In this document: piece after piece, positions 1,254 to 24,365 of the stretch | Numbering within the stretch: position 1 is the stretch's first letter | Layout: each line of letters opens with the position of its first letter | The notes under the pieces: model-generated | Seen by the model: the letters and a program-made list of their open reading frames with translations, nothing else | Database searches by the model: none | What the model was told of the DNA's origin: nothing | Program-made: the position numbers and the translations under genes | NCBI RefSeq assembly: GCF_027213965.1 | Contig: NZ_JAPWGX010000001.1 | Location: 496,001-560,000, forward strand | Source: Maritalea porphyrae | GTDB lineage: Bacteria > Pseudomonadota > Alphaproteobacteria > Rhizobiales > Devosiaceae | Direction: 5' to 3' | DNA length: 64,000 bases

Positions 1254-1262
1254 GGTTAGTTC

Positions 1263-1979: not shown

Positions 1980-1996
1980 CTATCCACTTTCAAAGT

Positions 1997-2023
1997 GGGG
2001 TGACGCTGACAAAGCGACACCCC
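1997..2023 (-). other. Intercistronic hairpin between binding protein and livF
   Basis: Arms GGGGTGACGCT and AGCGACACCCC (one mismatch) with a 5-nt loop, 18 bp after the binding-protein stop. There is no T tract, so it probably stabilises the upstream mRNA or partly terminates. The same arrangement recurs after the binding proteins of other ABC operons in this window. Confidence 0.6.
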
Positions 2024-2040
2024 GGTATTTGCAATCAAAA

Positions 2041-3201: not shown

Positions 3202-3222
3202 TCTTCCCTCCACTTTGGACGT

Positions 3223-5118
3223 TTAGTCGTCCATTTCTTCGCCGATATAGGCTTCTATGACGTGCGGATCCGCCTGAACCTCCTGAGGGGTTCCGCTCGC
3301 AATTTGTTCGCCCTTATTGACCACATAGATCTGATCACAGAGCGCCATGACCATTGGAAGGTCATGTTCAACCAACAAGATTCCGCAGCCGATGCGCTGC
3401 ACAATTTGTTGCAAAAGGTCTGTAAGGTCTTTGGTTTCTTGGTCGTTCATGCCAGCAGCAGGCTCGTCCAAAATAAGGAACTGTGGTTCAAGAGCCAGAG
3501 CGCGTGCGATCTCAAGACGTCGCTGATCGCCATAGGCCAAACCATCGGCCTGCTCTTGATATTTATTTTCCAGCCCCAAAAAGGCTAACCAATTGAGCGC
3601 CAATTGCTCTGCTTCTACCCGAGACATATCGGGGCGCGAAACATTGACCGCAGCTATGACGTTTTCAAGCGCGCTCATGGCACCAAACGTTCTAATGTTT
3701 TGAAAGGTTCGGCCTAGTCCAATTTTTGCCAATTCACTGGCACTCGCCAGCGTTACGTCATTCCCGTTGAGCTGAATTGAACCACCTGTTGCAAAAAGAT
3801 TGCCGGTGATGACGTTAATGAATGTGCTCTTCCCCGCACCGTTTGGACCGATCAGTCCAACGATTTGGCCCGCTTTGACTTCAAGATTGATTTTATCCAT
3901 CGCACAAAAAGCACCATAGGATTTTTGCAGATTTGTTGTGGTGAGTACCGCGGTTTCATCAACGTGGTAGTTGGGCTTATTCGAATGGGCAGTTTTCTCT
4001 GCAAATACATTCGGGAACAAACGCTGGAACCATTGGTGCGCAGCGATCTCCTTGTATCCCGCCACCCCTTCTGGGCGATAATAGAGCACCAGCAAGATCA
4101 AAAGTGAAAACGACAGAGCTGTTAGGCCAAACACGTTTGGCATAATAAAGCCAAACGCCAATTCAGTGCCCGAATACCCATTGAGGAATTCCTCAGTCTT
4201 TTTGAAGATCTCTTCAGCAAAACTAACAAATATTGCGCCAACAACGGCACCAGTGAGCGAGCGATAGCCACCAACGATCACCAACACGATAAGCGCAAAG
4301 GTTTTGTCGAGATAGAATGAAGACGGCGACACCACACCAACGGAATGGGCAAACAATGCACCAGCTGCCCCCATGATCGCAGCGCTAACCACCCAGACAC
4401 CAAAAATTGGTCGCTCCGAGCGTATGCCGATTGAGCGCGCAGCTGGTTCGTTTTCTCTAAAACTTTCTGCAGCGCGGCCGATGCGGCTCGATTTTACGGC
4501 GAACGCAATCATCAGCGCCAGCGCCAACAAACCAAGAACCAGCGGCCAAGTAACCTGCTCGGTTGGCAAAGCATATAGTGACTGCTTGCCGTTGGTAAGC
4601 GGCTTCAGGCCGATAAATAGCAAATAGGCGATGACCAGGAAACCAAAGCTTGCAATGACGGCAGATGTTTCGCGCAGTCGCTGCATAACAAAACCTGTTA
4701 GCACCCCAACAATTGCGGCAGCACACGTAGCTGGCACAATGGCCGCGACCAACGGCCATTCCACATTTAACAATGGTGCGGGCAACTGTGGTAGCAAAAT
4801 TGGCTTTATCGTGGATGGAATGGTGAACCACGCGGACACATAGGCGCCGATGCCAAAGAAGACGACATGGCCAAGCGAAAGGATGCCCGTTGAGCCGCAA
4901 AACAGCCCAAGACCAACGCCTGCAATAATATTGATGGCGGCGATTTTCAACAAACGTTCACTGGCGAAGCCAAGCCCTGCAATCAGCGCTAGAACCCCGC
5001 ACACCAGCAAGAATAGCGAGACTGCGCTGAAGACAGAAACCCTTGTTCGTTGGTCAAAAAACGCCGAAAACTTCGACGCGCGCGCAGTTTCGCTTTGCGC
5101 CATACCGATACTGCTCAA
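3223..5118 (-). CDS. livMG: Fused LivM-type permease and LivG-type ATPase
   Basis: One polypeptide of about 631 residues joins an inner-membrane permease (roughly residues 30-370, with LivM-like segments such as AGVGLGLFCGSTGILSLGHV) to a complete ATPase (about 390-631) with Walker A GPNGAGKST, signature LAYGDQRRLEIARAL and Walker B FLILDEPAAGMNDQE, a typical LivG sequence. Start: a TTG at 5118 sits 5 bp after GGGGGAGG, whereas the in-frame ATG at 5103 has no Shine-Dalgarno and a start at 5175 is also open. Fusions of LivM to LivG are known in proteobacteria. It is the first gene of the operon and is preceded by an inverted repeat. Confidence 0.88.
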   Translation of the reverse strand: MSSIGMAQSETARASKFSAFFDQRTRVSVFSAVSLFLLVCGVLALIAGLGFASERLLKIAAINIIAGVGLGLFCGSTGILSLGHVVFFGIGAYVSAWFTIPSTIKPILLPQLPAPLLNVEWPLVAAIVPATCAAAIVGVLTGFVMQRLRETSAVIASFGFLVIAYLLFIGLKPLTNGKQSLYALPTEQVTWPLVLGLLALALMIAFAVKSSRIGRAAESFRENEPAARSIGIRSERPIFGVWVVSAAIMGAAGALFAHSVGVVSPSSFYLDKTFALIVLVIVGGYRSLTGAVVGAIFVSFAEEIFKKTEEFLNGYSGTELAFGFIMPNVFGLTALSFSLLILLVLYYRPEGVAGYKEIAAHQWFQRLFPNVFAEKTAHSNKPNYHVDETAVLTTTNLQKSYGAFCAMDKINLEVKAGQIVGLIGPNGAGKSTFINVITGNLFATGGSIQLNGNDVTLASASELAKIGLGRTFQNIRTFGAMSALENVIAAVNVSRPDMSRVEAEQLALNWLAFLGLENKYQEQADGLAYGDQRRLEIARALALEPQFLILDEPAAGMNDQETKDLTDLLQQIVQRIGCGILLVEHDLPMVMALCDQIYVVNKGEQIASGTPQEVQADPHVIEAYIGEEMDD

Positions 5119-5131
5119 TCGATCCTCCCCC

Positions 5132-5217
5132 TTTGCATCGTTTGAATTGATGCAAATATTCACCGCCCCCAACATTCAACGACGTCGGCCGGCGGTTTAC
5201 ACATCACTTGTGTACAT
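5132..5217 (-). promoter_or_regulatory. Control region of the liv operon
   Basis: Two sites lie before the operon. An inverted repeat TTTGCATC / GATGCAAA with a 9-bp spacer (5132-5156) falls just before the Shine-Dalgarno. Further up, TTGTGTACAT (5208-5217) fits the T-GT-NN-AC-A pattern of FCD-type GntR operators and resembles the TGTATACA sites near the GntR gene. No clear -35/-10 pair was found. Binding is inferred. Confidence 0.35.
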
Positions 5218-5341
5218 ATTCAAAGATAATTGTTTGAAAGTCGCAATAAAAGCGATATTTTTGGCAGTTTACTGTTATGTATCGTAACTTAATTTTACCC
5301 GACCGACTATTGCGACAATGGAACTGCCAAATATAAACAAA

Positions 5342-5369
5342 CGATCTCAGATACTTATACCTGAGATCG
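5342..5369 (-). terminator. Terminator of the glutamine-synthetase-like gene
   Basis: A perfect 9-bp stem CGATCTCAG / CTGAGATCG with a 10-nt loop begins 30 bp after the stop at 5399. On the minus strand it is followed by a T-rich run (TTTGTTTATATTT). It separates this gene from the liv operon. Confidence 0.7.
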
Positions 5370-5398
5370 CTCTATGCTTGAATTTGACAACTAAAACA

Positions 5399-6694
5399 TT
5401 AGAAATTGTGCAGATAGCGGTCGGTCTCCACTTGCGTAACCTGTTTATTCACAAATTCAATTTCACGTTCCGCCTGTTTTACAATCACGGCTAGCCGGTC
5501 TTTGCCGACCACGTCTTGCATAAACTGAGACTGTTTTGCGCGTCGAACGGCCTCATCAAGGGACAATGGCAAGGGCTCATCATCACTATCTTCATATGCG
5601 TTGCCCTCGATATGAGGACCAGGTTTCAGACCAGCTTCAATTCCATCTAGACCAGCCGCAATTTCACATGCCAACAAATAATATGGATTGCAGTCGGCGG
5701 AAGCGTCGCGCTTTTCAATACGCACTGCCGTGTCTGATCCATCAATCACACGCAATCCAACCGTGCGGTTATCATATCCCCAGCTGGCGTTCATGGGGCA
5801 AAATGTATAGGGCTGACGGCGACGATAGGCGTTTGGCGTCATTGATGTCACCAAAGACATTTCCGCCATTCGCGTTTGCAAACCTGCCAAGAATGCCAAA
5901 CCGGTTTTGTTGATCGTTTTGTTGGTTGCGAATTGGTTTTTGCCGTCTCTCCACAATGAATAGTGCGTATGAAACCCGCTGCCACTTTGATCGATGTACG
6001 GCTTGGCCATAAATGTAGCAAGATAGCCATGCTTAAGTGCAAGTTCTTTGACCATCGCACGGAAAAGCACAACGCGATCGGCGGCTTTGAGTGCCTCACC
6101 ATACCGAATATTCACCTCAACTTGCCCTGCGGCATATTCTGGGTTCGACTGCTCAATAGGAATGCCAAGGGCGTTCAAGTGCTCGCGGATGGGACCAAGA
6201 ACATGCTCCATTTCAGCCATGCGGTTGATGCCATAGACTTGGTTGCCAGAAAATGTCGGCTTCCCGGTTTCTGGGTCCAGCAAATAGAACTCAAGCTCTG
6301 TGCCGACTTGAACCTCATAGCCCATTTTGGCCGCCCGCTCGACTTGAGCAACAAGCGCATTGCGTGGATCGATTGGCACGGGCTTATGGTCAAGCCCCTC
6401 AGCGCGCGCCATACAAATTGCCACGCCCTCTTCCCAAGGTGACGCCACGGGCACGTGAGATGGGAACATATGCATGTCCACATAGCCGTTATCGAAACTA
6501 CAATATGGCGTGTCCCAGACATCACTGGTCATGTCCATTGCAAAAAGCGCAGCGATAATGGCATTGCCATCGTTGCACGTGCGCTCCCATTGCGTTGCGG
6601 GAATGCGCTTGCCGCGCATAAAGCCGTTAACATCGCCAACGCCCAACACAATAGTGTGCGTTCCCTCTGGCAAAGTATAATCTGAAAACCCCAA
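5399..6694 (-). CDS. Glutamine synthetase family ligase (gamma-glutamyl-amine synthetase type)
   Basis: An ATP-dependent ligase of the glutamine synthetase fold. The N-terminal beta-grasp (LGVGDVNGFMRGKRIP) is followed by the catalytic domain with metal-site motifs GTELEFYLLD and NPEYAAGQVEVNI, the ATP-site segment GSGFHTHYSLW and the Arg-rich NAYRRRQP. At about 431 residues it lacks the adenylylation region of GlnA and matches PuuA/GlnA3-like enzymes that glutamylate amines. Start: TTG 6694 follows AGGGGAGAG; the ATG at 6733 has no Shine-Dalgarno. It is divergent from the GntR gene and close to P450, GABA aminotransferase and two class I amidotransferase-type hydrolases, which suggests a role in amine catabolism rather than ammonia assimilation. 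Confidence 0.85.
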   Translation of the reverse strand: MGFSDYTLPEGTHTIVLGVGDVNGFMRGKRIPATQWERTCNDGNAIIAALFAMDMTSDVWDTPYCSFDNGYVDMHMFPSHVPVASPWEEGVAICMARAEGLDHKPVPIDPRNALVAQVERAAKMGYEVQVGTELEFYLLDPETGKPTFSGNQVYGINRMAEMEHVLGPIREHLNALGIPIEQSNPEYAAGQVEVNIRYGEALKAADRVVLFRAMVKELALKHGYLATFMAKPYIDQSGSGFHTHYSLWRDGKNQFATNKTINKTGLAFLAGLQTRMAEMSLVTSMTPNAYRRRQPYTFCPMNASWGYDNRTVGLRVIDGSDTAVRIEKRDASADCNPYYLLACEIAAGLDGIEAGLKPGPHIEGNAYEDSDDEPLPLSLDEAVRRAKQSQFMQDVVGKDRLAVIVKQAEREIEFVNKQVTQVETDRYLHNF

Positions 6695-6894
6695 AGGTCT
6701 CTCTCCCCTTTTGTCTTTCCAGAAATTTTGCATTTTTGTATTCAGTATGCAAGAGTTTCATAATATCAAATTCGAACAGATAATGTTATGTTTTATGCAT
6801 GTAATTAGTATTTGAACTTATTTTTTGTTCGTTATTCGTAATTTAAGTTGGTTCGAATGCGGTTGTCTTGAGCAACTGCTTGTCGTATGGCAAC

Positions 6895-6985
6895 TGTATA
6901 CAAAGAAATTGGCAAGGCGGCAGACATGGCAACATTCAAAAAGATAAATGCTCCAAGAATTCGACTTGCTGATGAAGTGTATACA
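6895..6985. promoter_or_regulatory. TGTATACA sites at the start of the GntR gene
   Basis: TGTATACA occurs at 6895-6902, 24 bp before the preferred GntR start, and again inside the gene at 6978-6985 in the larger palindrome GTGTATACAC. The same core is found as TTCTGTATACAGAA before the P450 gene. The pattern T-GT-NN-AC-A is the usual operator of FCD-type GntR proteins, so autoregulation is likely. The site within the gene could be chance. Confidence 0.45.
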
Positions 6986-7597
6986 CAGATCATCAATGCC
7001 ATCCACGAGGGTCAGATTTCGCCGGATCAGCGCCTGGTTCAGGAAAAACTGGCGGCAGAACTTGAGATCAGCCGCACACCAATCCGCGAAGCTTTGTTGC
7101 GATTAGAGCAAGAAGGCATTCTAACGCTATCTGGTCGTGGCGGCTTCATAATCCGGCAGATTGAACTTGAAGAAGTACATGAAATATACCACACGCGCGC
7201 AGCTATTGAAGGATATGCAGCACGGCTTTTGACCGAAAGCGGTGATGAAAAGCTGTTTAAGCAGATTGAAGCTGTAATAACACTTGAAGAAACGCGCGAC
7301 TTGAAAACAGCTGCAGATTTCTATGATGCCAACAAAAACATCCATCGCGCTTTTGTTGAAAGAACAAACAATCGCTATTTGCTAGATATGTTTGACCAAA
7401 TGTGGAACCGAGGGTTTTCATTCCATTTGTTCGCAACGATCAAAGAACATGAACTGGAAAAGTCTCTGGGCGAGCACCAGGCTCTATGTGATGCGCTAAA
7501 GGCTGGCGACCCTGCCGCCGCTGAAATGGCTATGCGAGCACATATCAACGACGGCCTGGATCTGCAACTTGGTGCATTGGCAGAAGAAGCGGCCTAA
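6926..7597 (+). CDS. GntR-family (FCD-type) transcriptional regulator
   Basis: A 223-residue regulator with an N-terminal winged helix (about residues 10-75, including QEKLAAELEISRTPIREALL with the GntR signature RTPIREAL) and a C-terminal all-helical FCD ligand domain. The ATG at 6926 has AAGGCGG upstream and leaves the TGTATACA motif outside the coding region; an in-frame ATG at 6887 would place the operator inside the gene. It is divergent from the glutamine-synthetase-like gene, and its 3' end overlaps the convergent alcohol dehydrogenase by 4 bp. Likely a repressor of the surrounding amine/P450 genes (inference from shared motifs). Confidence 0.88.
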   Translation: MATFKKINAPRIRLADEVYTQIINAIHEGQISPDQRLVQEKLAAELEISRTPIREALLRLEQEGILTLSGRGGFIIRQIELEEVHEIYHTRAAIEGYAARLLTESGDEKLFKQIEAVITLEETRDLKTAADFYDANKNIHRAFVERTNNRYLLDMFDQMWNRGFSFHLFATIKEHELEKSLGEHQALCDALKAGDPAAAEMAMRAHINDGLDLQLGALAEEAA

Positions 7598-8688
7598 CCA
7601 ATTGAAAAATCAATGATGGTGCGGATGCCCTGCCCTTTGCGCATATCATCAAAGCCGTCATTGATCTGATGCAACGGAATCCGTCCGGTCAGCATATCAT
7701 CAAGATTGAGACGACCGTCCAAATAGAATGCCACCAACCGCTGCATATCGGTTCGGAACTGGTTTGATCCCATATCGCATCCCATAACTCGACGCTCTGC
7801 GATAAACTGCATGAAGGGCAACGACACTTCTGCGTCTTGTGACATAAGCCCGATCAACACCAATGTGCCGTTTTTGCGCAACATCATAAAAGCGTCGCGC
7901 GCCAATTGGGGTGAACCGACGGCTTCAAATGCATATTCAGCCCCCTTGCCCAGCGTTATCTGTATAACCTGATCCACTGGCGAGGCAGTTTTGGAGTTTA
8001 TGACGTGGGTTGCGCCAAATTTCTTCGCCATCGCCAATCGATCGGCATTAATATCAATCGCGATAATATTGAGTGCTCCGGCCATTCGCGCGCCTTGCAC
8101 TGCATTCAGGCCAACCGCGCCACAGCCAATAACCACAACGCTCGAACCAAGCTCAACTTTTGCGGTGCGCATAACCGCACCAATGCCCGTTGTGACCCCA
8201 CAACCAATCAAAGCGGCCTTGTCTAATGGCATCGCTTTGTCGATTTTGGCCAGCGCATGTTCATGCACCAACATATGGTCAGCGAAAGCTGATAGGTTCA
8301 TGAACTGTTGCACAGAACTGCCCGCCTGCATCAGGCGCGGCTCTTCTTTGTCATCACGGTTGATGGACGCTTGATCTTCACAAATCGAAGGGTGTCCAGA
8401 AAGGCACTGATGACAAGATCCGCAAAAAGCGGACAAACAGCCAATAACATGGTCGCCGGGCTGCAAATAGCTCACCCCAGCCCCTACTGCGCGCACAATG
8501 CCTGCGGTTTCGTGCCCAAGAACAGCAGGCGCAGGCACAGGCAAATGCCCGTCCATGAAGTGCAAGTCTGTGTGGCAAAGTCCTGTTGCCGCAACTTCAA
8601 CCAACACTTCATTATGCCCCGGATTGGACAGTGTAATCTCTTCAATTTCTAACGGCTGACCCGCTTGTCGAAAAATTGCAGCTTTCAT
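7594..8688 (-). CDS. Zn-dependent medium-chain alcohol dehydrogenase
   Basis: A 364-residue NAD(P)-dependent oxidoreductase. Catalytic zinc ligands are in GLCHTDLH (Cys and nearby His) and LGHETAGIV. The structural zinc loop is CGSCHQCLSGHPSIC with four Cys. The Rossmann motif is VIGCGAVGLNAVQGA. Length and four-Cys loop fit the class III-like aldehyde/alcohol dehydrogenase group. The ATG at 8688 follows GGGGGACAC, so the extra upstream residues are not used. It forms a minus-strand pair with the alpha/beta hydrolase and lies between the GntR and P450 genes, so it probably oxidises an alcohol or hydrated aldehyde intermediate of that pathway. Confidence 0.85.
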   Translation of the reverse strand: MKAAIFRQAGQPLEIEEITLSNPGHNEVLVEVAATGLCHTDLHFMDGHLPVPAPAVLGHETAGIVRAVGAGVSYLQPGDHVIGCLSAFCGSCHQCLSGHPSICEDQASINRDDKEEPRLMQAGSSVQQFMNLSAFADHMLVHEHALAKIDKAMPLDKAALIGCGVTTGIGAVMRTAKVELGSSVVVIGCGAVGLNAVQGARMAGALNIIAIDINADRLAMAKKFGATHVINSKTASPVDQVIQITLGKGAEYAFEAVGSPQLARDAFMMLRKNGTLVLIGLMSQDAEVSLPFMQFIAERRVMGCDMGSNQFRTDMQRLVAFYLDGRLNLDDMLTGRIPLHQINDGFDDMRKGQGIRTIIDFSIG

Positions 8689-8699
8689 AGTGTGTCCCC

Positions 8700-9494
8700 C
8701 TAGTTCTCTAGCTCTTGCCAAAACGTTTCAAGTTGTGCGTTTACAGCAGTTGGATTCTCCAAATTGGCAATATGTCCGGCGTCTGGAATGATAGATGCTC
8801 GCGCGTTGAGCAACTCTGCGGCAATGCGTTCGGCATAGGCCGGCGGTGTCTCGGCATCCAACGCACCTGCCAAAACAAGCGAGGGCACGTTAATGGCCTT
8901 TAGCTTTGCTAGCGCGTCGTGCTCAGCAATCAGATGCGTCGTCAGCTTCAGGCCCTGTTTTGTGGCACGAGACATGGCGCCAATCGCTTCTTGTCGAACT
9001 GTGTTCCTGCAGTCCGGTGCAACAATGGCATTGATCATTGAGGCGCTAAACTCCGCCACTGAAACGTCACTGTCCAACTGCCCGCAAATCGAATGGGTAA
9101 ACTCTTTTGGATCCGCATCACCGCCCAAACCGAATTTTGGCGAACTATCCATAATCGTCATCGACGTCATATGTTGGGGATAGACCGCAGCAAAATGCTG
9201 CAAAATCATTCCGCCAACGGACAGACCAACAAAGTGGGCTTTTTCCAAACCCAGCGTTTTCGTGACAAAATGGTGAAGCGCCGCAACAACCTCTTGCATG
9301 CGGGCATTGTCCGCTAACGGCGCTGAAATACCAAACCCTGGCATGTCCCAGGCAATGCATCTGTACGCTTTGGAAAAACGCTCAAATTGCGGCCGCCAAG
9401 CGGTCTTTGAACCGGCCATTGCATGCAAGAATATGATGGGTGATCCTGCGCCGCATTCAAGCCAGGACACACCATCGACTGTCGTATTTTTCAT
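8700..9494 (-). CDS. Alpha/beta-hydrolase fold protein
   Basis: A 264-residue serine hydrolase. The nucleophile elbow is GLSVGG in HFVGLSVGGMIL, the oxyanion segment is FLHAMAGSKTAW, and the late Asp/His pair lies in LAGALDAETPP and PDAGHIANLENP. This layout resembles 3-oxoadipate enol-lactonase and BphD-like C-N/C-C/ester hydrolases. Start 9494 has GGGGAGAG upstream. It is the first gene of a minus-strand pair with the alcohol dehydrogenase and diverges from the P450 gene across a region containing two GTATAC motifs. A lactone- or lactam-type substrate would suit the pathway, but that is a guess. Confidence 0.8.
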   Translation of the reverse strand: MKNTTVDGVSWLECGAGSPIIFLHAMAGSKTAWRPQFERFSKAYRCIAWDMPGFGISAPLADNARMQEVVAALHHFVTKTLGLEKAHFVGLSVGGMILQHFAAVYPQHMTSMTIMDSSPKFGLGGDADPKEFTHSICGQLDSDVSVAEFSASMINAIVAPDCRNTVRQEAIGAMSRATKQGLKLTTHLIAEHDALAKLKAINVPSLVLAGALDAETPPAYAERIAAELLNARASIIPDAGHIANLENPTAVNAQLETFWQELEN

Positions 9495-9597
9495 AAGCTC
9501 TCCCCTTTTCATCACGTCTTAAATGGAGAATAATCGCTGCAACTACAGCAACTTACACTCGTCCACTTTTTGTAAAAATCCCCTCTACAATTTGCTC

Positions 9598-9630
9598 GTA
9601 TACAGCATACATGAATTTCTGTATACAGAA
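9598..9630. promoter_or_regulatory. Putative GntR operators between hydrolase and P450 genes
   Basis: The perfect 14-bp palindrome TTCTGTATACAGAA (9617-9630) lies 26 bp before the P450 start. A second GTATAC core at 9598-9603 is spaced 23 bp away, about two helical turns. The same core precedes the GntR gene. Joint control of the divergent hydrolase/dehydrogenase and P450/reductase units by that GntR is inferred. Confidence 0.55.
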
Positions 9631-9656
9631 TTCAGAGAAATTTTTGAGGGATGGCT

Positions 9657-10922
9657 ATGACCAATCAACCAGTTTTTGAAACCGACCTAAATGATCCGCA
9701 TTTGTTTGATGATGGGATACCGCACGAGGTGTTTTCTAACATGCGTTCGACGAGCGGCCTGGTGTGGAATCCCATCGGCGAAGAAGGCGATGGTTTTTGG
9801 TGCGTTGGTCGTTTTGAGGATGTGGCAGAGGTTTCGCGTCACCCCGAGATTTACAGCTCCGGGGTTGGTCACATTCAAATCTACACCATTGATGAGGATG
9901 CGCTGGAGGCTCGCGCATCCATGATTGATATGGATCCCCCTGCCCACACAAGGCTGCGTCGCTTGGTCAACCCGGGGTTCATTCCCCGCAACATTCGAGA
10001 CTATGAACCAATTGTGCGTGAACGGGCGTCAAAGCTTCTCGACGACTTGATCAAAGATGGTGGCGGCGATTGGGTTGATCGTGTGGCAAAGCCTATTCCC
10101 ATTGGCATAATCTGCGACATGCTTGGTGTTCCTGAAGAAGACCGCAACTATATGATTGAATTGACGGACCATCTGGTCGCTGGCACCTCCGCAAAGCCTT
10201 TGGACCCGAATGCCTATGGCAACACTATTCCACTGCGCCTTTTGCCGTTTAACAGTCCTGCAGCTTTTGCCCTATCCGAGTATGCGCGCGAACTGGGCGA
10301 AAAACGCCGCGTAGACCCTAAGGACGATGTGGTGTCGAAATTGGTTCACACAGAAATCGATGGTGAAAAACTGACCGATGCCGAATACACCAACTTCTTC
10401 CGTTTGTTGATTTTTGCCGGCAATGAAACAACACGCTCGGCTATGTCCAACTTGGTGCTGCAAATCGTTCAATTCCCTGAGGTCTTTGAGAATCTCAAAC
10501 AAAATCCAGATTTGATGGAAGGCGCGGTTGAAGAAATTGTTCGCTACGCTTCTCCTATTTTGTATTTCCGTCGCACAGCAACACAAGACACCGAACTATC
10601 GGGCACCAAAATCAAAAAAGGGGAAAAGGTCGTTATGTGGTATGCGGGTGCCAATTTCGACGAAGGTCGTTTTGACGACCCGCTTTCCTACAATATTGAT
10701 CGACCAAAACAACCCCACGCCGGTTACGGTGGCGGGGGTGTTCACACCTGCCTCGGCGCAGGCCTCGCGCGGATTGAGTTGCGGGTTTTGCTCGAAGAAA
10801 TTCTGAAGCGCAATATGGGGTTTGAGATCAAAGAAAAGCCTGAATATGTACATTCGAATTTTGTGAATGGCATTGAGCATTTGCATGTCACTGTGACAGG
10901 AACCCCAGGAGCCGGCAAATGA
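9657..10922 (+). CDS. Cytochrome P450 monooxygenase
   Basis: A soluble bacterial P450 of 421 residues. I-helix oxygen motif is FAGNETTR, K-helix EEIVRY (ExxR), heme loop GYGGGGVHTCLGAGLAR with Cys as proximal ligand, and MDPPAHTRLRRLV is the conserved C-helix region. The start at 9657 is 6 bp after GAGGG; the ATG at 9651 directly abuts it. It overlaps the reductase gene by 4 bp (ATGA), so the two are translationally coupled and probably form one monooxygenase. By context (GntR, glutamine-synthetase-like ligase, GABA genes) it may hydroxylate a secondary or cyclic amine like the CYP151 enzymes. The family number cannot be assigned by eye. Confidence 0.92.
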   Translation: MTNQPVFETDLNDPHLFDDGIPHEVFSNMRSTSGLVWNPIGEEGDGFWCVGRFEDVAEVSRHPEIYSSGVGHIQIYTIDEDALEARASMIDMDPPAHTRLRRLVNPGFIPRNIRDYEPIVRERASKLLDDLIKDGGGDWVDRVAKPIPIGIICDMLGVPEEDRNYMIELTDHLVAGTSAKPLDPNAYGNTIPLRLLPFNSPAAFALSEYARELGEKRRVDPKDDVVSKLVHTEIDGEKLTDAEYTNFFRLLIFAGNETTRSAMSNLVLQIVQFPEVFENLKQNPDLMEGAVEEIVRYASPILYFRRTATQDTELSGTKIKKGEKVVMWYAGANFDEGRFDDPLSYNIDRPKQPHAGYGGGGVHTCLGAGLARIELRVLLEEILKRNMGFEIKEKPEYVHSNFVNGIEHLHVTVTGTPGAGK

Positions 10923-12046
10923 ATGCCTTAACCTCAGCACATCAACTTGTGCCAATCTCGTCACCCGCTATGCGGGCCTTTCGAGTGACCCGGATTGTAA
11001 ATGAGTCCTCGATCATCAAGAGTTTTTGGCTCAAACCACAATCCGAAGAAACACTGAATTTTGTCCCCGGAGAATATTTGGTGTTTGAAGTACCAGCAGG
11101 TCCAAATGGTGAAACCTTGAAGCGTGAGTATTCAATTTCCGGATCGACAGACGAGCAGCTGCGCGTTTCAATAAAGCTCGAAGAAAGCCCAAATGGCACC
11201 ACTTATCCTGACGGTCTTGTTTCAACCTATTTTCACAAATCGCTTAAAGAAAATGATGTCGTTTGTGCATTTGGACCTACTGGAAAGTTCCTCCTAGATC
11301 GGAACAGCGATCGGCCTGTTGTCTTGTTGAGTGGCGGCGTGGGGCAAACGCCTTTGATTGCAATGGCACATGATTTGGCACAACGTGGAACGTGCCAAAC
11401 GCAAATCATCCATGCGTGCGAAAATGGTGAGGTTCACGCTTTGCGCGATGAACTGGTCGCCCTATGTGAGGCGGCTGACAATTTGGACGTGCATTTTGTT
11501 TACCGAACGCCTACGCAAAACGACAAAACCAACAAGCGGTTTGACAGCGAAGGCGTTGTCACCAAGGCGTTGCTGCAAACACTTCTGCCAGTTGACGACT
11601 ACACATTTTATCTTTGTGGGCCCGGCCCATTTATGCAGGCAATGTTTGAGTTACTGCTTGAATTGGGCATCGCTGAAGAGCGTATCAACTATGAGTTTTT
11701 TGGCCCTGCAACGGTTTTGAAACGTTCTGGAACAAATGCGACACAAAGTGAGACAAAGAGAGACAGTGTCATGGCAACGTCTAACGATACGCAACCCATT
11801 GTAAAATTTGGAAAATCCGGCATTGAAGTTGCTTGGGACCCCTCATTAGAGAACCTTTTGGACTTTGCTGAAGAACATGGCCTGATGCCAGACTTTAGCT
11901 GCCGCGCGGGGACATGTGATAGCTGTAAAACAAAGCTTTTGTCTGGTGAAACAGAATATATATCAGAGCCTATGGAGCGTCCTGCGGGCGATGATATCTT
12001 GATCTGTTGCTCCGCCCCAACTAAAAATATCACGTTGGATTTGTAG
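10919..12046 (+). CDS. FAD/NAD(P)-binding reductase with C-terminal 2Fe-2S ferredoxin domain
   Basis: A 375-residue electron-transfer protein. The N-terminal flavin-binding barrel has REYSISGS, the NAD domain LLSGGVGQTPLIAMA and the YLCGPGPFMQAM segment. After a linker around residues 265-285 a plant-type ferredoxin domain follows with CRAGTCDSCKTKLLSGE and a distal CCSAP that supply the four cluster cysteines. The order FMN/FAD-NAD-2Fe-2S is that of phthalate-dioxygenase-reductase-like proteins. Coupled to the P450 gene, it should deliver NAD(P)H electrons to it without separate ferredoxin and ferredoxin reductase. Confidence 0.9.
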   Translation: MNALTSAHQLVPISSPAMRAFRVTRIVNESSIIKSFWLKPQSEETLNFVPGEYLVFEVPAGPNGETLKREYSISGSTDEQLRVSIKLEESPNGTTYPDGLVSTYFHKSLKENDVVCAFGPTGKFLLDRNSDRPVVLLSGGVGQTPLIAMAHDLAQRGTCQTQIIHACENGEVHALRDELVALCEAADNLDVHFVYRTPTQNDKTNKRFDSEGVVTKALLQTLLPVDDYTFYLCGPGPFMQAMFELLLELGIAEERINYEFFGPATVLKRSGTNATQSETKRDSVMATSNDTQPIVKFGKSGIEVAWDPSLENLLDFAEEHGLMPDFSCRAGTCDSCKTKLLSGETEYISEPMERPAGDDILICCSAPTKNITLDL

Positions 12047-12055
12047 GTCAGAACT

Positions 12056-12751
12056 ATGAAAATCGGAATATTGCAAACAGGCCATGTTGTTGGTGAACTG
12101 CTTGAAAATCATGGTGATTTTGACGGCATGTTTAGAAAACTTTTGGACGGTTATGGGTTTGAATTTGAAACCTATAATGTCGTGGACAATGAGTTTCCTA
12201 ACTCCCCCACACAAGCTGATGGCTGGCTGATAACTGGCTCTGCACATGGTGCATATGAAGACTTGCCTTGGATTGCCAAACTTGAAGACTTTTTGCGACA
12301 AACATACGCAAAGGACGTTCCAATTGTTGGAATTTGCTTTGGACATCAAATACTTGCCAAAGCCATGGGCGGCGAAGTCGTCAAGTACGATCAGGGATGG
12401 TCGATTGGCAATCAAGCCTACGCACTCGCGGCGCCACTTGATGAAAAGGTCCGTGTTGTGGCTTGGCACCAGGACCAAGTGACGAAGCTACCAGAACATG
12501 CAGAATGCTTGGGGAGTTCGCCATTTTGCCAAAACGCTTTCGTACGTTATGGCAACACGGCTTTCACGATGCAGGCTCATCCCGAGTTTGGCACTGCATT
12601 TGGCAAAGATTTGATGGAATACCGCAAAGACAGCTTGCCCCATCCCCTGATCGAAGAGGCGCGCGCCCATTTTGATGAAGGTCTGGATCAAGAAAAAATG
12701 GCCGCTCAAATTACTAGCTTCTTCAAAGAACGCACGCTGAAAGCTGGGTGA
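12056..12751 (+). CDS. Class I glutamine amidotransferase-like protein (GMP synthase/GuaA-like hydrolase domain)
   Basis: A 231-residue single-domain protein with the Cys nucleophile in GICFGHQILA, the oxyanion-side LITGSAHGAYED and the His/Glu pair in MQAHPEF, so the Cys-His-Glu triad is complete. There is no synthetase domain. Stand-alone proteins of this type are annotated as GMP synthase-like, but in catabolic clusters they may hydrolyse gamma-glutamyl amides. It lies 9 bp after the reductase gene, in the P450 operon, and a glutamine-synthetase-type ligase is nearby. I therefore infer removal of a gamma-glutamyl group. A bidirectional terminator follows. Confidence 0.82.
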   Translation: MKIGILQTGHVVGELLENHGDFDGMFRKLLDGYGFEFETYNVVDNEFPNSPTQADGWLITGSAHGAYEDLPWIAKLEDFLRQTYAKDVPIVGICFGHQILAKAMGGEVVKYDQGWSIGNQAYALAAPLDEKVRVVAWHQDQVTKLPEHAECLGSSPFCQNAFVRYGNTAFTMQAHPEFGTAFGKDLMEYRKDSLPHPLIEEARAHFDEGLDQEKMAAQITSFFKERTLKAG

Positions 12752-12779
12752 ATAAGGGGCGCTTGCTGCGCCCCTTATT
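12751..12779. terminator. Bidirectional terminator between P450 operon and gabTD
   Basis: A perfect 12-bp stem, AATAAGGGGCGC and GCGCCCCTTATT, with a 5-nt loop fills the 29 bp between the convergent stops. The A/T ends provide a short U tail in each direction. Confidence 0.8.
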
Positions 12780-12780
12780 G

Positions 12781-14268
12781 CTATTCAATACCGCCGAAAC
12801 ACAGATATTTTGTTTCCAAATAGTCGTCCGTTCCGTACTTGGACCCTTCTCGCCCCAAGCCAGATTGTTTGATGCCGCCGAACGGCGCAACCTCGGTGGA
12901 AATTAGTCCGGTATTGATGCCCACCATGCCGTATTCCAAAGCCTCTGCGACTTTCCAGACGCGGGACAGATTGTTGGCATAAAAGTAAGAAGCCAAGCCG
13001 AATTCTGTGTCATTTGCTTGGGCAATTACATCATCAACATCCTTGAACTTGAACAAGGGCGCGACGGGGCCAAAAGTTTCGTCACGCGCGACCATCATCG
13101 ATTTGTCAACATTGGTTAGTACTGTTGGTTCAAAAAACGTGCCACCTTTTTTATGTCGCATACCGCCTGCCAACACAGTTGCGCCTTTCGCTACTGCGTC
13201 GGCGATGTGGCTTGAGACCTTTTTGACCGCTTTTTCATCGATCAAGGGGCCGGTGCTTGTTCCTTCTTCAAGACCATTACCGACGTTGAGTTTACTCACC
13301 GCTTCAGCCAGCTTTTGAGAGAAAGCGTCATAAACGGCGTCTTGGACATATATTCTGTTTGCACAAACACACGTTTGACCGTTATTGCGGTATTTGGCGA
13401 TCATGGCACCTTCGACTGCTGAATCCAGATCGGCATCATCAAACACAATGAAGGGGGCATTGCCGCCAAGCTCCAAGCTGATTTTCTTAATGTCATCAGC
13501 GCATTGTCGCATCAGTATTCGGCCAACCTGGGTTGACCCCGTAAAGGTGAGTTTTCTCACAATCGGATTGCTGCACAGCTCTTGGCCAACTTCAGATGCT
13601 TTTGAACTCGTTATGATGTTGAGCAGCCCATCCGGTAAACCGGCGCGTTGTGCCAACTCGGCCATCGCCAAAGCCGACAGAGGTGTTTCAGATGCAGGCC
13701 GCGCGACCACAGCACAACCCACAGCTAGCGCCGGGCCCACTTTTCGCGCAATCATGGCGTTGGGGAAGTTCCACGGCGTAATTGATGCAACAACTCCAAT
13801 TGGTTGCTTGAGCACGACGATGCGTTTGTCTTCTTGATGGCCGGGAATTGTGTCGCCATAGATGCGTTTGGCTTCTTCGGCGAACCACTGGATGAAGCTC
13901 GCGCCGTAAAGGATTTCGCCCTTTGCTTCGGCGAGTGGTTTGCCCATTTCTGCGGTTAGGATGACCGCAAGATCATCGGCATTTTTGACCAACAGGTGAT
14001 ACCATTTCATCAATATTTCTGCACGATGCTTGCCGGTTTTCTTCGCCCATTCTCGTTGGGCTTGCTGAGCAAAACTGATGGCCAATCGCGTTTCTTTGAC
14101 ACCCAAGTCGGGCACAGTGGTGATTGTGTCGCCACAGGCCGGATTTTGTACGGTGATGATCGCGCCACCATCAGCGTCAACCCATTGCCCATTGATGAAC
14201 GCTTGGCTTTTGACCAAACTTCCATCCTTGAGCATTGGAATAATGTTTCTTGACTTGCCCATTCTCAT
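12781..14268 (-). CDS. gabD: NAD(P)-dependent succinate-semialdehyde dehydrogenase
   Basis: A 495-residue aldehyde dehydrogenase with the substrate/cofactor loop ITPWNFPNAMIARK, the general-base Glu in SLELGGNAPFIVFDDADLD and catalytic Cys in NGQTCVCANRIYV. The double-Cys CVC around the nucleophile and the overall sequence match GabD, which oxidises succinic semialdehyde to succinate. Its ATG overlaps the gabT stop (ATGA), so the pair is translationally coupled. Together they convert GABA to succinate. GabD enzymes can also act on glutarate semialdehyde. Confidence 0.9.
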   Translation of the reverse strand: MRMGKSRNIIPMLKDGSLVKSQAFINGQWVDADGGAIITVQNPACGDTITTVPDLGVKETRLAISFAQQAQREWAKKTGKHRAEILMKWYHLLVKNADDLAVILTAEMGKPLAEAKGEILYGASFIQWFAEEAKRIYGDTIPGHQEDKRIVVLKQPIGVVASITPWNFPNAMIARKVGPALAVGCAVVARPASETPLSALAMAELAQRAGLPDGLLNIITSSKASEVGQELCSNPIVRKLTFTGSTQVGRILMRQCADDIKKISLELGGNAPFIVFDDADLDSAVEGAMIAKYRNNGQTCVCANRIYVQDAVYDAFSQKLAEAVSKLNVGNGLEEGTSTGPLIDEKAVKKVSSHIADAVAKGATVLAGGMRHKKGGTFFEPTVLTNVDKSMMVARDETFGPVAPLFKFKDVDDVIAQANDTEFGLASYFYANNLSRVWKVAEALEYGMVGINTGLISTEVAPFGGIKQSGLGREGSKYGTDDYLETKYLCFGGIE

Positions 14269-15545
14269 TGTGCTGCCGCCTCTTTGATCGCTTGTTCGAG
14301 GATGTCCATGGCTTCTTCAAAAAGCTCAGATTCAATTGTAAGTGGGGCAAGAAAGCGAATGACATTGCCGTACACACCACAAGTGAGCAAGACCAGCTTG
14401 TTCGCCAGCGCGAGGTCTTTCACCTTTGCTGTGAATGCTGGATCAGGTTGCCCATTCAAGTCGTTAAACTCAACGGCCACCATCATGCCCACGCCGCGCA
14501 CGTCTGCGATTTGGGAGACGTCTTTTGAGATGTTTTTTAAGCGCTCTTGCAACAGCGCGCCCATTTGAATTGCGCGTTCACACAATTGTTCTTCTTCAAT
14601 TACATCCAAAACAGCATGCGCTGCAGCAATCGCCAAAGGGTTACCGCCATATGTGCCGCCCAACCCGCCTGGTTCCGGAGCATCCATTATGTCGGCGCGT
14701 CCTGTGACTGCAGCTAGTGGCATCCCTCCGGCAAGCCCCTTGGCCATGCATGTCAGGTCAGCTGCGATGCCGTAGTTCTCCATGGCAAAGTGTTTTCCGG
14801 TGCGTGCAAAACCCGTTTGGATTTCATCCGCAATCAGGACCATGCCCTGCTGATCGCACAACTTTCGCAAAGCATCCATAAGCTCTTGAGGAACAGGATA
14901 GAACCCGCCCTCACCTTGGATTGGCTCAATAATGATCGCAGCAACACGCGTCGCTTCAATTTCACTTTTGAATATCCGCTCTATCCCGGCCAAACTATCT
15001 GCAACGGACACACCATGTACCTCAATTGGGAAAGGCGCATGGTAGATATCGGGCATCATTGACCCGAATTTCGTTTTGTAGGGCGCAACCTTGCCCGTAA
15101 GCGACATGCCCATATATGTTCGGCCATGGAAGCCCCCGCTAAAAGCGATCACCCCGGTGCGCCCTGTGTGTGCGCGGGCGATCTTTATCGCGTTTTCAAC
15201 GGCTTCTGCCCCGGTAGTCACAAAGGCCGTCTTTTTCTCAAAGTCACCTGGCACCAAATTGTTTAACCGCTCGGCCAAATGAACGTAGTTTTCATAAGGC
15301 AATACATGATGACAAGTGTGCGTAAATTGGGCCAGTTGGGCCGTAATTGCCTCAACAATCTTTGGATGCCGATGGCCGGTGTTTACAACCGCAATACCGG
15401 CTGCAAAATCGATATATCGGTCGCCGTTTTGATCCACAACTTCTGCGTTTAACGCGCTTTTTGCAAAGATCGGGTTCATCAATCCAACCCCTTTTGGCAA
15501 AGCGGTAGCGCGGCGCTGCAAGAGCGCTTGATTTAGATCTTCCAT
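14265..15545 (-). CDS. gabT: 4-aminobutyrate aminotransferase (class III)
   Basis: A 426-residue PLP-dependent class III aminotransferase. PLP phosphate-binding TTGAEAVENAIKIARAHTG, cofactor Asp in LIADEIQTGFARTGKHF and Schiff-base Lys in CMAKGLAGGMPLAAV are all present. Sequence and pairing with gabD indicate GABA:2-oxoglutarate transamination to succinic semialdehyde; 5-aminovalerate is often accepted too. The ATG at 15545 follows GGAGA, so the five upstream residues are discarded. It is the first gene of gabTD, 40 bp after the YeiH-type gene on the same strand, and could be read through from that operon. Confidence 0.92.
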   Translation of the reverse strand: MEDLNQALLQRRATALPKGVGLMNPIFAKSALNAEVVDQNGDRYIDFAAGIAVVNTGHRHPKIVEAITAQLAQFTHTCHHVLPYENYVHLAERLNNLVPGDFEKKTAFVTTGAEAVENAIKIARAHTGRTGVIAFSGGFHGRTYMGMSLTGKVAPYKTKFGSMMPDIYHAPFPIEVHGVSVADSLAGIERIFKSEIEATRVAAIIIEPIQGEGGFYPVPQELMDALRKLCDQQGMVLIADEIQTGFARTGKHFAMENYGIAADLTCMAKGLAGGMPLAAVTGRADIMDAPEPGGLGGTYGGNPLAIAAAHAVLDVIEEEQLCERAIQMGALLQERLKNISKDVSQIADVRGVGMMVAVEFNDLNGQPDPAFTAKVKDLALANKLVLLTCGVYGNVIRFLAPLTIESELFEEAMDILEQAIKEAAAQ

Positions 15546-15585
15546 TTTAGGTCTCCACATTTAAGGCGCGGCGCGTGCCGCGAGC

Positions 15586-16605
15586 TTAGAAATACGTCAG
15601 AACAAGCAAGGCAAATCCCGCAATCCAGATCGTTTCAGCGACCACCATGATCATTGCGGCGGGGCCGACCTCAAACAATTCTTTCAAAGATGTTTTCACC
15701 CCAAGTCCTGCCACTGCAGCCACCAACGCCCATTTTGAAAGTCCCGTAAAAACGTCAGCTGCAAACGGCGGAATCCAGCCAAATGAATTGATGATGACCA
15801 GCGCAACGAAACCAACCAAGAAGGGCGGGAAACGATTAATTTTTTTGTCCGCCGCTGGTTTTCGATTGGCGACAATGATGCTGATGATGGCAACGACGGG
15901 CACCAGCATGGCGACCCGCATGAGTTTAACAACAGTTGAAGTTTCACCTGCTAGATCCGACACTGTGTACCCGGCGCCAACCACCTGCGCCACATCGTGA
16001 ATGGTGGCACCGAAGAACACACCCGCCTGTATCTCGTTCAGCCCAAACCCGCTTGCAATCAATGGGTAGACGATCATGGCAATCGTGCTCAAAGACGTCA
16101 CTGCAACAACAGTAAAAATCGTGTCTCGCTCGACGATGGTTTGCTCAGACTTTGGTAAAGCCGAACTGATTGCCAAGGCGGCGGACGCCCCACAAATGCC
16201 AACAGAGCCGGCCGTGAGCAAGCCAAACCATTTGGTTTTGCCAAGCATTTTTGCCAAAACAAGACCAAGTAAGACTGTGGATACCAAACCCCCTATGACA
16301 ATGACCGTTGTCATAGCTCCCAAATTGAGCACTTCATTGATCGTAATCCGAGCACCCAGAAAAGCGACACCAATCCGCAGAATTGTTTTTGAGGAAAACT
16401 GAACCCCTTCCATGAATTTGCCGGTTTCGTCGACAAAATTGAATGCCATACCCAAAAGCAACGCAAACAGCATTACTGGTGCGCCGTAGTTCGTGCCCAA
16501 AAAAGTTGCTGCCATGGCAATCGTTGCACAAAGCACCATGCCAGGCAGCAAAGTTTGGAAACGATCGCGCGCGATCTTGGGGAGGTCATTTTTCACAAGG
16601 GACAA
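15586..16605 (-). CDS. YeiH/YadS-type putative sulfate (sulfite) exporter, UPF0324 family
   Basis: A 339-residue integral membrane protein with about ten hydrophobic segments. Conserved features are GTNYGAPVMLFALLLGMAFN near the N-terminus, TAGSVGICGASAALAISSAL and GATIHDVAQVVGAGY, all hallmarks of the UPF0324/Cons_hypoth698 family. The family is annotated as a putative sulfate exporter, but transport has rarely been shown. Location 20 bp after the TTC38-like gene, in a unit with a desulfinase-like enzyme and CoA-transferase, fits export of sulfite or sulfate. A TTG start with a weak Shine-Dalgarno is used here; the N-terminus is uncertain. Confidence 0.82.
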   Translation of the reverse strand: MSLVKNDLPKIARDRFQTLLPGMVLCATIAMAATFLGTNYGAPVMLFALLLGMAFNFVDETGKFMEGVQFSSKTILRIGVAFLGARITINEVLNLGAMTTVIVIGGLVSTVLLGLVLAKMLGKTKWFGLLTAGSVGICGASAALAISSALPKSEQTIVERDTIFTVVAVTSLSTIAMIVYPLIASGFGLNEIQAGVFFGATIHDVAQVVGAGYTVSDLAGETSTVVKLMRVAMLVPVVAIISIIVANRKPAADKKINRFPPFLVGFVALVIINSFGWIPPFAADVFTGLSKWALVAAVAGLGVKTSLKELFEVGPAAMIMVVAETIWIAGFALLVLTYF

Positions 16606-16625
16606 TCCAATTTGATTGAGTTCAG

Positions 16626-17957: not shown

Positions 17958-17983
17958 TGCCAACCGTCCCCCCCAAACTCATT

Positions 17984-20454: not shown

Positions 20455-20555
20455 CGTGACATCCCCACCTCTCTGGAGGATCAATATCACCCAGAAAATT
20501 CCTTGTTGCAGCGACCATAAATATTAAATAAGCTAAACAAAAGCGATTAAATATT

Positions 20556-22404: not shown

Positions 22405-22420
22405 CCCGAATGGGTGAACT

Positions 22421-23401: not shown

Positions 23402-23404
23402 TGC

Positions 23405-24235: not shown

Positions 24236-24333
24236 TGTCTTCTCCCTTATTCGCTTCCCCCCCCAAAAAAAAGGAGCAAGAAACACCAGGAGCAACCATG
24301 GGGCGCTCGCTAAGAATCTCAAAATCGATTTGC

Positions 24334-24365
24334 TTGACACAATTCATAGAAAATCTCTATAGATT
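24334..24365 (+). promoter_or_regulatory. Sigma-70-like promoter of the LysR gene, apparently leaderless
   Basis: TTGACA (24334-24339), an 18-bp spacer and TATAGA (24358-24363) are followed only 7 bp later by the ATG at 24370, so transcription would begin at or very near the start codon. No Shine-Dalgarno is present. The palindrome AATCT-ctat-AGATT (24352-24365) overlaps the -10 element and could be the autoregulatory LysR site. Confidence 0.55.

Follow-up and report, generated by a model that had tools for sequence, protein, structure and literature searches.

What does a bacterium degrade with a cytochrome P450, a glutamine synthetase (GS)-like ligase and the gabT and gabD genes lined up within 10 kb? 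We addressed this question for a cluster of Maritalea porphyrae that begins at position 5399 of the window, by which we mean the whole 64,000-nucleotide (nt) stretch analysed here (contig NZ_JAPWGX010000001.1, positions 496,001 to 560,000) and to which all coordinates refer. An initial annotation, made from the letters alone, had assigned positions 5399-15545 to the breakdown of cyclic amines of the pyrrolidine, piperidine or morpholine type, ending in succinate. Our proposal differs: the cluster may encode a catabolic route that takes a small sulfur-containing amine, most likely 3-methylthiopropylamine, to propionyl-CoA and sulfite. We give this reading as a whole about an even chance of being right. 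Its lower half, from homohypotaurine to propionyl-CoA and sulfite, we consider probable, and the upper half with 3-methylthiopropylamine as substrate tentative, somewhat short of even.

Open reading frames, Pfam matches and NCBIfam scores bear out the nine genes named in the initial annotation, in family and, exactly or very nearly, in position. They lie in three strand blocks: the GS-like gene on the minus strand with a GntR regulator on the plus strand; an alpha/beta hydrolase and an alcohol dehydrogenase (ADH) on the minus strand with the P450, its reductase and a glutamine amidotransferase (GATase)-type gene on the plus strand; and gabD and gabT on the minus strand. The interval first assigned holds the right genes but ends too early. 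The third block continues on the minus strand to 20490, with intergenic gaps of -4 to 26 nt, and carries beyond gabT the genes for a YeiH/PSE-type exporter, a TPR protein, a protein of the acyl-CoA dehydrogenase family and a class III CoA-transferase; a LysR regulator gene (20593..21459, plus strand) lies divergent from the CoA-transferase.

The gabD product (12781..14268, minus strand), a succinate-semialdehyde dehydrogenase (SSADH) by family and in our proposal a 3-sulfinopropanal dehydrogenase, reaches 742 bits with TIGR01780 (cut-off 646) and 825.6 bits with PRK11241 (cut-off 828), and is the sole aldehyde dehydrogenase within 5399-20490. The gabT product (14265..15560, minus strand), a gamma-aminobutyrate (GABA) transaminase by family and a proposed homohypotaurine transaminase, reaches 729 bits with NF005692 (cut-off 724) and also passes the cut-off of TIGR00700. 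The earlier call of GabT and GabD downstream is supported. A second GabT, 65% identical, is encoded elsewhere in the genome (G000:C44), so housekeeping need not fall to the cluster copy. The exporter gene (15586..16605, minus strand; PF03601, E 9e-64) encodes a putative sulfate/sulfite exporter with a TIGR00698 score of 126 bits, below the cut-off of 233.

Central to our proposal is the gene at 17984..19183 (minus strand), whose product has the acyl-CoA dehydrogenase fold and is predicted to be a 3-sulfinopropanoyl-CoA desulfinase. It scores 653 bits with NF042439 (cut-off 600) and 213 of 470 bits with the glutaryl-CoA dehydrogenase model, and six other desulfinases that we scanned (from loci L006, L007, L090, L140, L144 and L091) all exceed the NF042439 cut-off. 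Its best solved relative, at 505 bits, is 5af7, a sequence also coded 5ahs. Arg84, one of the key residues expected of a desulfinase, is kept in all ten sequences aligned with 5AF7 (the window protein and nine others). The YEG motif with the catalytic Glu of the dehydrogenases reads GGG in the window protein and AGG in 5AF7; 5AHS is a sulfinopropionyl-CoA desulfinase, and the change from YEG to AGG is described for it (PMC8360864). The window protein passes the desulfinase family cut-off and carries the expected key residues, and we propose that it acts on 3-sulfinopropionyl-CoA. The adjoining class III CoA-transferase (19183..20490, minus strand; PF02515), a proposed succinyl-CoA:3-sulfinopropionate CoA-transferase, scores 497 bits with NF052585 (cut-off 750), and a Paraburkholderia enzyme encoded beside acdA likewise stays below, at 502 bits. 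Both the CoA-transferase and the LysR gene adjoin the desulfinase region, as in the mercaptopropionate/3-sulfinopropionate catabolic module. The NF052585 match had suggested a glutarate branch, from piperidine through 5-aminovalerate and glutarate to glutaryl-CoA; we reject this branch on the two model scores of the desulfinase and its lost catalytic Glu.

We then asked how far the two halves of the cluster travel together. A pattern-based scan of genomes from 84,980 species, in which the P450 was the query, gave 79 loci (L003-L081; best 80 of 82). In six of them (L003-L008) the P450 is 58-81% identical to that of the window, and in L009-L081 it is 28-45% identical, the 45% case being a 137-residue fragment. 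A plasmid search added L090, Mesorhizobium loti pML2037 (NZ_CP016080.1), with a P450 at 69%. The window, L003-L008 and L090 make up a set of eight clusters with P450s at least 58% identical; given the mode of the scan they are not a census, and with L004 and L005 closely related (their P450s are 97% identical) they count as seven independent clusters. The 73 remoter loci, L009-L081 (1.17 Mb), served as controls, with matches taken at E 1e-8.

The GS-like gene accompanies the P450 in the window and in all seven other close loci (GS identity 38-81%), and lies near only one of the 73 remoter P450s, which argues that the arrangement is not chance. The desulfinase is present in all eight genomes or records (window, L003 genome, L004-L008 and L090), which span three bacterial classes. 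L003 ends inside gabD, and a second contig of its genome, L106, holds the CoA-transferase, desulfinase, TPR gene, gabT and, at its end, the start of gabD, consistent with one broken operon. On the L090 plasmid the set is reshuffled: ADH, hydrolase, P450, reductase, an APC permease, GS, TPR, a C26 hydrolase, exporter, desulfinase, CoA-transferase, LysR and GntR lie together beside trb conjugation genes, followed by an XRE regulator, two subunits of propionyl-CoA carboxylase type and a methylmalonyl-CoA mutase. The control loci contain one GS, one reductase, two hydrolase, three ADH, two GabT and seven CoA-transferase matches, together with 14 acyl-CoA dehydrogenase homologues that are ordinary members at 22-33%; GATase, TPR protein, exporter and cysteine dioxygenase (CDO) each gave none. 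As judged from gene order, the GS/P450 half and the desulfinase/TPR half are shown to be one conserved unit. The initial annotation had expected the GntR, GS-like, P450 and one-piece reductase genes to co-occur. For GS and P450 this holds throughout; a GntR/FCD homologue is found at 46-74% in L003-L006, L090 and L087 (a variant cluster described below), at 26% in L008 and not in L007, and the one-piece reductase adjoins the P450 in L003-L006, L090 and L087 and is not seen in L007 or L008.

Close relatives of the P450 are rare. At the thresholds used they occur in 1 of 136 genomes of the family (E 1e-60), 2 of 385 of the class (E 1e-100) and 1 of 398 of the phylum (E 1e-110), the M. porphyrae genome being included in the class count and being the single match in the family and the phylum; in the class of the L006 genome the count is 1 of 369 (E 1e-100), G882. 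Within the family this genome alone has either the P450 or the desulfinase (E 1e-130), a distribution that fits horizontal gain of the cluster. The next nearest full-length P450, at 49%, is in genome G222, where no desulfinase was found at E 1e-60. Its cluster (L087, on G222 contig 10; 4850-14649) comprises ADH, GntR, GS (63%), one-piece reductase, P450 (about 49-50%) and GATase, together with an omega-aminotransferase that scores above the AptA cut-off and an aldehyde dehydrogenase of PuuC-like type (605 of 850 bits); neither the TPR protein nor the alpha/beta hydrolase was seen in the 20 kb examined. L087 resembles a Puu-like route for alkylamines that a P450 would start, and its gene content, with an aldehyde dehydrogenase and AptA in place of desulfinase, TPR protein and hydrolase, is what would be expected if its P450 made a carbon-bound rather than a sulfur-bound alcohol.

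The genes of the upper half suggest chemistry on a glutamylated amine. The GS-like protein (5399..6733, minus strand; PF00120, E 4e-89), a predicted gamma-glutamylamide synthetase that would glutamylate the amine, stays far below the equivalog cut-offs of GlnA (210 of 429 bits), PuuA (202 of 650) and type III (239 of 470), in agreement with the earlier remark that it lacks GlnA features. The GntR/FCD regulator (6887..7597, plus strand; PF00392 and PF07729) is divergent from it. The P450 (9651..10922, plus strand; PF00067, motifs GGGVHTCLG and AGNETT), a proposed terminal S-methyl hydroxylase, has as its nearest solved relatives CYP125, CYP124 and CYP268 in a comparison that included no CYP151 sequence (370 bits with CYP125MRCA, about 275 bits with CYP125/124). 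The names of these entries include steroid C26-monooxygenase and methyl-branched lipid omega-hydroxylase, that is, terminal methyl hydroxylases. The initial annotation had said that a P450 of a terpene- or steroid-hydroxylating family without a conserved link to the GS-like gene would speak against it; the outcome is split: steroid and lipid terminal hydroxylases are indeed what the P450 resembles, yet the GS-like gene stays linked to it in other genomes.

The P450 gene overlaps that of the reductase (10919..12046, plus strand; PF00970, PF00175 and PF00111) by 4 nt. As annotated, this is a one-piece NAD(P)H/FAD/2Fe-2S reductase, with the FNR domain and a C-terminal ferredoxin domain in a single 375-residue chain (motifs CRAGTCDSC, GGVGQTP and REYS). 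The zinc-dependent ADH (7594..8721, minus strand) belongs to the class I/III branch and is proposed to oxidise S-hydroxymethyl to S-formyl; among solved structures it matches S-(hydroxymethyl)glutathione dehydrogenase best (7aas, 274 bits), with class I enzymes scoring up to 264. The alpha/beta hydrolase (8700..9515, minus strand; PF00561, nucleophile elbow GLSVGG), a proposed S-formyl thioester hydrolase, had no solved relative at E 1e-20. The class I GATase-type hydrolase (12056..12751, plus strand; PF00117, motifs GICFGHQ and HPE), whose gene starts 9 nt after that of the reductase, is a proposed gamma-glutamyl amide hydrolase. In L090 a PuuD-like C26 hydrolase occupies its place, an exchange that speaks for both enzymes acting as gamma-glutamyl hydrolases. 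The view of the initial annotation that this is an amine-degradation cluster, in which GS-like ligase, P450 and GATase probably work on gamma-glutamylated intermediates, agrees with the published logic of isopropylamine (Ipu) degradation (PMC6776027).

In the proposed pathway, the cell would import 3-methylthiopropylamine (decarboxylated methionine), and the GS-like ligase would gamma-glutamylate it and so mask the reactive amino group. The P450, served by its one-piece reductase, would hydroxylate the S-methyl group, the class III-like ADH would convert S-CH2OH to an S-formyl thioester, and the alpha/beta hydrolase would free formate and the thiol. An activity that may belong to the TTC38-like TPR protein or to the P450 would oxidise the thiol to the sulfinate, and the GATase-type hydrolase would strip off glutamate to leave homohypotaurine (3-aminopropanesulfinate). 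GabT would transaminate homohypotaurine to 3-sulfinopropanal, GabD would oxidise this to 3-sulfinopropionate, the CoA-transferase would activate the acid to its CoA ester, the desulfinase would split the ester into propionyl-CoA and sulfite, and the YeiH-type exporter would remove sulfite or sulfate. The proposed end products replace the succinate of the initial annotation.

For the upper steps we infer S-demethylation, a scheme we favour because it would use the P450 (S-CH2OH), the ADH (S-CHO) and the hydrolase (thiol), every one of those genes. Since the amine must end as a C3 amino-sulfinate, the simplest substrate is an S-alkylated 3-aminopropanethiol, and 3-methylthiopropylamine is a natural compound of this type. 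It is an intermediate of a dimethylsulfoniopropionate (DMSP) pathway, in a decarboxylation route without known genes (PMC11306096). For the lower steps, GABase (GABA transaminase with SSADH) converts homohypotaurine to 3-sulfinopropionate in vitro (PMC11396700), and this activity allows gabT, gabD, the CoA-transferase, the desulfinase and the exporter to be read as one continuous pathway.

Several observations weigh against this proposal. The substrate is deduced from the C3 amino-sulfur skeleton only; the likeness of ADH and P450 to S- or methyl-oxidising enzymes is moderate, with class I ADHs scoring nearly equal; the CoA-transferase and the exporter both fall below their NCBIfam cut-offs; and in Advenella SucCD, not the neighbouring transferase, activates 3-sulfinopropionate (PMC5373536). 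GabT and GabD are found in four of the eight clusters (window, L003 with L106, L004 and L005), as is the exporter (window, L004, L005 and L090). The Acidimicrobiia clusters L007 and L008 have two P450s each, with neither a one-piece reductase nor a close ADH seen, and GabT was not found in their genomes at E 1e-60. In L007 the GATase match is weak, and CoA-transferase, ADH and hydrolase have none within the stretches examined; in L008 ADH (27%), hydrolase (34%) and CoA-transferase (34%) match weakly. The desulfinase is common in the class, with matches in 50 of 385 genomes (E 1e-120, M. porphyrae included), so it is unspecific to the pathway and was dropped as a marker. Finally, no enzyme for the thiol-to-sulfinate step was identified: the CDO family gave no match in the genome, other cupin dioxygenases not being searched. 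The desulfinase tree groups the sequences of L090, L004, L006, L106 and the window together (support 0.99) and sets L007 and L008 apart, its deep nodes being weakly supported; the desulfinase of the Acidimicrobiia clusters may come from another branch. Downstream of the L008 cluster, past genes that by eye resemble those for fumarylacetoacetase and aldolase, lies a pyridoxal-phosphate-dependent decarboxylase gene (L008:18559-19953; best NCBIfam match diaminobutyrate decarboxylase, 196 of 900 bits), which could be an amine source or unrelated.

Could the TPR protein (16626..17963, minus strand) supply the thiol oxidation? It alone among the cluster proteins has no step otherwise assigned to it. 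We take it to be TTC38-like, a family for which we know of no function in bacteria or man; in Pfam it has weak TPR matches only. Among 12 homologues, five of them from outside the cluster, H200, H204, H235, H239, E173 and E174 are invariant, as are W197, W238, R281, R292, W293 and the motif GGSxAQR. An AlphaFold2 model built with six sequences is an all-helical TPR superhelix (mean pLDDT 88, pTM 0.85). Among the structure matches listed for it are TPR solenoid proteins, the best being Rap (8rsv, Z 19.1, root-mean-square deviation 4.5, 329 aligned residues), with which other TPR structures at Z 17-18 are tied; that no thiol dioxygenase is among the matches listed carries no evidential weight.

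The TPR gene adjoins the desulfinase gene in the window and five sister clusters. Beyond these, we examined 20 of the 49 other desulfinase genomes, at one desulfinase place per genome, and found a TTC38-like gene within 6 kb in four of the 20, compared with 0 of 73 control loci; a calculation by hand puts the chance that all four fall among 20 of 93 loci at about 0.002, a rough guide as the two sets differ in taxa. In L141 (TPR gene 7674-9173, desulfinase from 9037) and L144 (4747-6183 and 6208-7398) the two genes directly adjoin, in L143 and L152 they lie near each other, and in all four the P450/GS module is not nearby. A CoA-transferase match occurs in four of the 20 places (two at 33-34%), and the P450, the GS and two CDO query proteins in none. 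In L143 a luciferase-like (LLM-type, by eye) monooxygenase gene (8402-9406) directly precedes the desulfinase.

At the site beside the desulfinase where the TPR gene stands, Advenella and Diaphorobacter have a CDO homologue, which adjoins the desulfinase in Diaphorobacter; in Paraburkholderia a CDO lies about 6 kb from it, and the Ruegeria and Sulfitobacter contexts have neither a CDO nor a TPR gene in the annotation shown. The CDO family PF05995 has no match in the M. porphyrae genome at E 0.001 (a B. subtilis control matched) and matches in one of seven cluster genomes, that of L006; PF07847, the PCO/ADO type, matched in 0 of 7, with no match in its positive control either. The position beside the desulfinase, the recurrence without the P450 module and invariant His, Glu and Trp residues that resemble an active site on a TPR scaffold led us to consider the TTC38-like protein as the missing oxidase from thiol to sulfinate. 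We regard this as unlikely: 16 of the 20 other desulfinase places lack a TTC38-like gene, and L090 carries its TPR gene apart from the desulfinase. Human TTC38 is genetically tied to an unidentified urine metabolite, X-22162 (PMC7878905).

The same pathway ends could also be reached without a thiol. The P450 might first turn the glutamylated thioether into a sulfone and next hydroxylate the methyl group of this sulfone, and the alpha-hydroxysulfone would yield formaldehyde and sulfinate, leaving the C1 unit to ADH and hydrolase. Such a sulfone route, to which we allow perhaps one chance in five, needs no thiol oxidase and so explains both the missing CDO-family protein and the class III-like ADH, and the Acidimicrobiia clusters have the two P450s that it could employ; but it demands three oxidations from one P450 in the proteobacterial clusters and gives the conserved TPR protein no role. 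We hold equally minor, yet worth keeping, the possibility that the lower half is as proposed and the upper substrate is another thio-amine or an S-oxidised relative (DMSP-amine, 3-methylsulfinylpropylamine or a longer S-alkyl amine). The chain length is fixed only from the C3 sulfinate stage onwards, and the importers beside the clusters vary (LIV-type, PotD-like and APC). We have no specific point to set against it; the scan of the cluster genes brought up no obvious demethylase of the methyltransferase type.

Two further explanations leave sulfur out of the amine. In a composite cluster, GS, P450, ADH and GATase would take a sulfur-free alkylamine such as butylamine through gamma-glutamyl-GABA to GABA, and the desulfinase operon would serve a separate organosulfur acid. 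These parts parallel the Puu pathway, GabT and GabD belong to GABA families, and they parallel the Ipu pathway as well (PMC6776027); the G222 variant has no desulfinase match, and in 20 of 20 places examined the desulfinase lies away from a P450/GS module. Yet the desulfinase is linked in all eight clusters of three classes, even where the genes are reshuffled (L090) or GabT and GabD are not found, gabDT lie inside the desulfinase operon, and GabD is the only aldehyde dehydrogenase within 5399-20490, which makes this composite improbable in our view. The cyclic amine of the initial annotation, opened by the P450 and led through GABA to succinate, fares worst. It has in its favour the presence of GabT and GabD and, in Gulosibacter, GS genes numbered next to pipA-type P450s (PMC9477822). 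We nevertheless reject it as scarcely credible, on the desulfinase operon and the pattern of conservation: the desulfinase, CoA-transferase and exporter that share the gabDT operon are unneeded for piperidine, pyrrolidine or morpholine; GabT and GabD accompany the P450 in four of eight clusters against eight of eight for the desulfinase; the reductase is one-piece, not separate partners; and among solved P450s the closest are CYP125/124. The sulfur-amine pathway with S-demethylation in its upper half remains our preferred reading.

Genes around the cluster may contribute to it. Upstream, 223 nt from the GS-like gene, lies a four-gene importer of branched-chain-amino-acid ABC type (366..5175, minus strand; permease, ATPase, binding protein and fused permease-ATPase), a putative importer of the amine. 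The binding protein is LIV-like by a match to PRK15404 that stays below the cut-off (81 bits, cut-off 477). The importer occupies the same position in L003, L004 and L005 at 64-79% identity, while a PotD-like importer is found in L006 and an APC permease within the L090 cluster. Directly after the GS-like gene and before the importer is a 15-pair terminator-like hairpin (5339..5372, minus strand), the longest stem of the region; terminator patterns (23 against 21.4 in shuffles) are not above chance, and sigma-70 pattern counts are at shuffle level. On the other side, a PuuD-like C26 gamma-glutamyl hydrolase (21616..22404, minus strand; PF07722, E 1e-56; PRK11366 151 bits, cut-off 266) is 39% identical to the hydrolase of the L090 cluster and might provide the pathway with a second enzyme for gamma-glutamyl removal. 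On the same strand after it, to 24340, are apparent amino-acid ABC permease and binding protein genes (by eye); 21616-24340 is possibly another gamma-glutamyl unit adjoining the cluster. The rest of the window, from 25433 to 62892, looks like ordinary carbohydrate catabolism (by eye), with several sugar-type ABC transporters, sugar kinases, a PIG-L-like deacetylase, dehydrogenases and a TRAP permease.

Each module by itself has been described before, and we regard their combination as new. Among the papers listed on 3-methylthiopropylamine degradation, homohypotaurine and 3-sulfinopropionate or its CoA ester, as judged by title and abstract opening, none deals with the cluster, with the linking of these modules, with an amine feeding into the breakdown of 3-sulfinopropionate or with the recurring TPR partner. 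Homohypotaurine metabolism has drawn little attention (PMC11396700). If our proposal is true, bacteria have a route for homohypotaurine and, upstream, for the amine of decarboxylated methionine, in which glutamyl protection, P450 oxidation and desulfination together remove carbon, nitrogen and sulfur from one molecule, and the TTC38-like family gains a concrete, testable place. Were the TPR protein the oxidase, the cluster would be the first complete decarboxylated-methionine route.

The closest known relative of the lower half is the route by which Variovorax paradoxus TBEA6 and Advenella mimigardefordensis DPN7 degrade 3-mercaptopropionate through 3-sulfinopropionate, with Mdo, SucCD or Act, AcdA and Pse. 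In Variovorax, Mdo, SucCD or Act, AcdA and the sulfite/sulfate exporter Pse make up one route (PMC6370202), and in Advenella a LysR, a class III CoA-transferase, Acd and mercaptopropionate dioxygenase occur together, with propionyl-CoA and sulfite as products (PMC5373536). The window cluster shares, or is proposed to share, the class III CoA-transferase, the key residues of the desulfinase, LysR, the type of sulfate exporter and the products. Unlike that route it has an amine entry (GabT/GabD, GS-like ligase, P450 and gamma-glutamyl hydrolase) and the TTC38-like TPR protein, and no CDO-type mercaptopropionate dioxygenase was found in its genome. With the GABase assay reaction gabDT share the transaminase and SSADH chemistry; a natural catabolic role is our proposal.

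For the upper half, the putrescine (Puu) pathway likewise adds a gamma-glutamyl group and removes it before enzymes of the GabT/GabD type. This protection logic is common to both; in the window, family scans of the cluster genes found no PuuB- or PuuC-like gene within 5399-20490, and the GS-like protein is under the PuuA cut-off. The pip/mor clusters have a GntR-type regulator. They also have, by the locus numbers of PipA and MorA, a P450 beside a GS-like gene (PMC9477822), as in the window, but with separate ferredoxin and reductase where the window has the one-piece enzyme, and no sulfur module is mentioned for them. In the Ipu pathway IpuC glutamylates the amine, a P450 system oxidises the amide and a postulated amidotransferase sets the product free (PMC6776027), the same order of glutamylation, oxidation and deglutamylation for which the window holds GS-like, P450 and GATase genes. 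On plasmid pSR5 of Aminobacter sp. SR38 (L105, typed conjugative) we noted an APC permease, oxidoreductase, ferredoxin, GS-like gene, P450, ferredoxin and GATase, a set that we infer to be an Ipu cluster. Unlike this set with its separate ferredoxin and reductase, the window, whose P450 and GS are 30% and 34% identical to those of pSR5, has a one-piece reductase and couples the module to a desulfinase.

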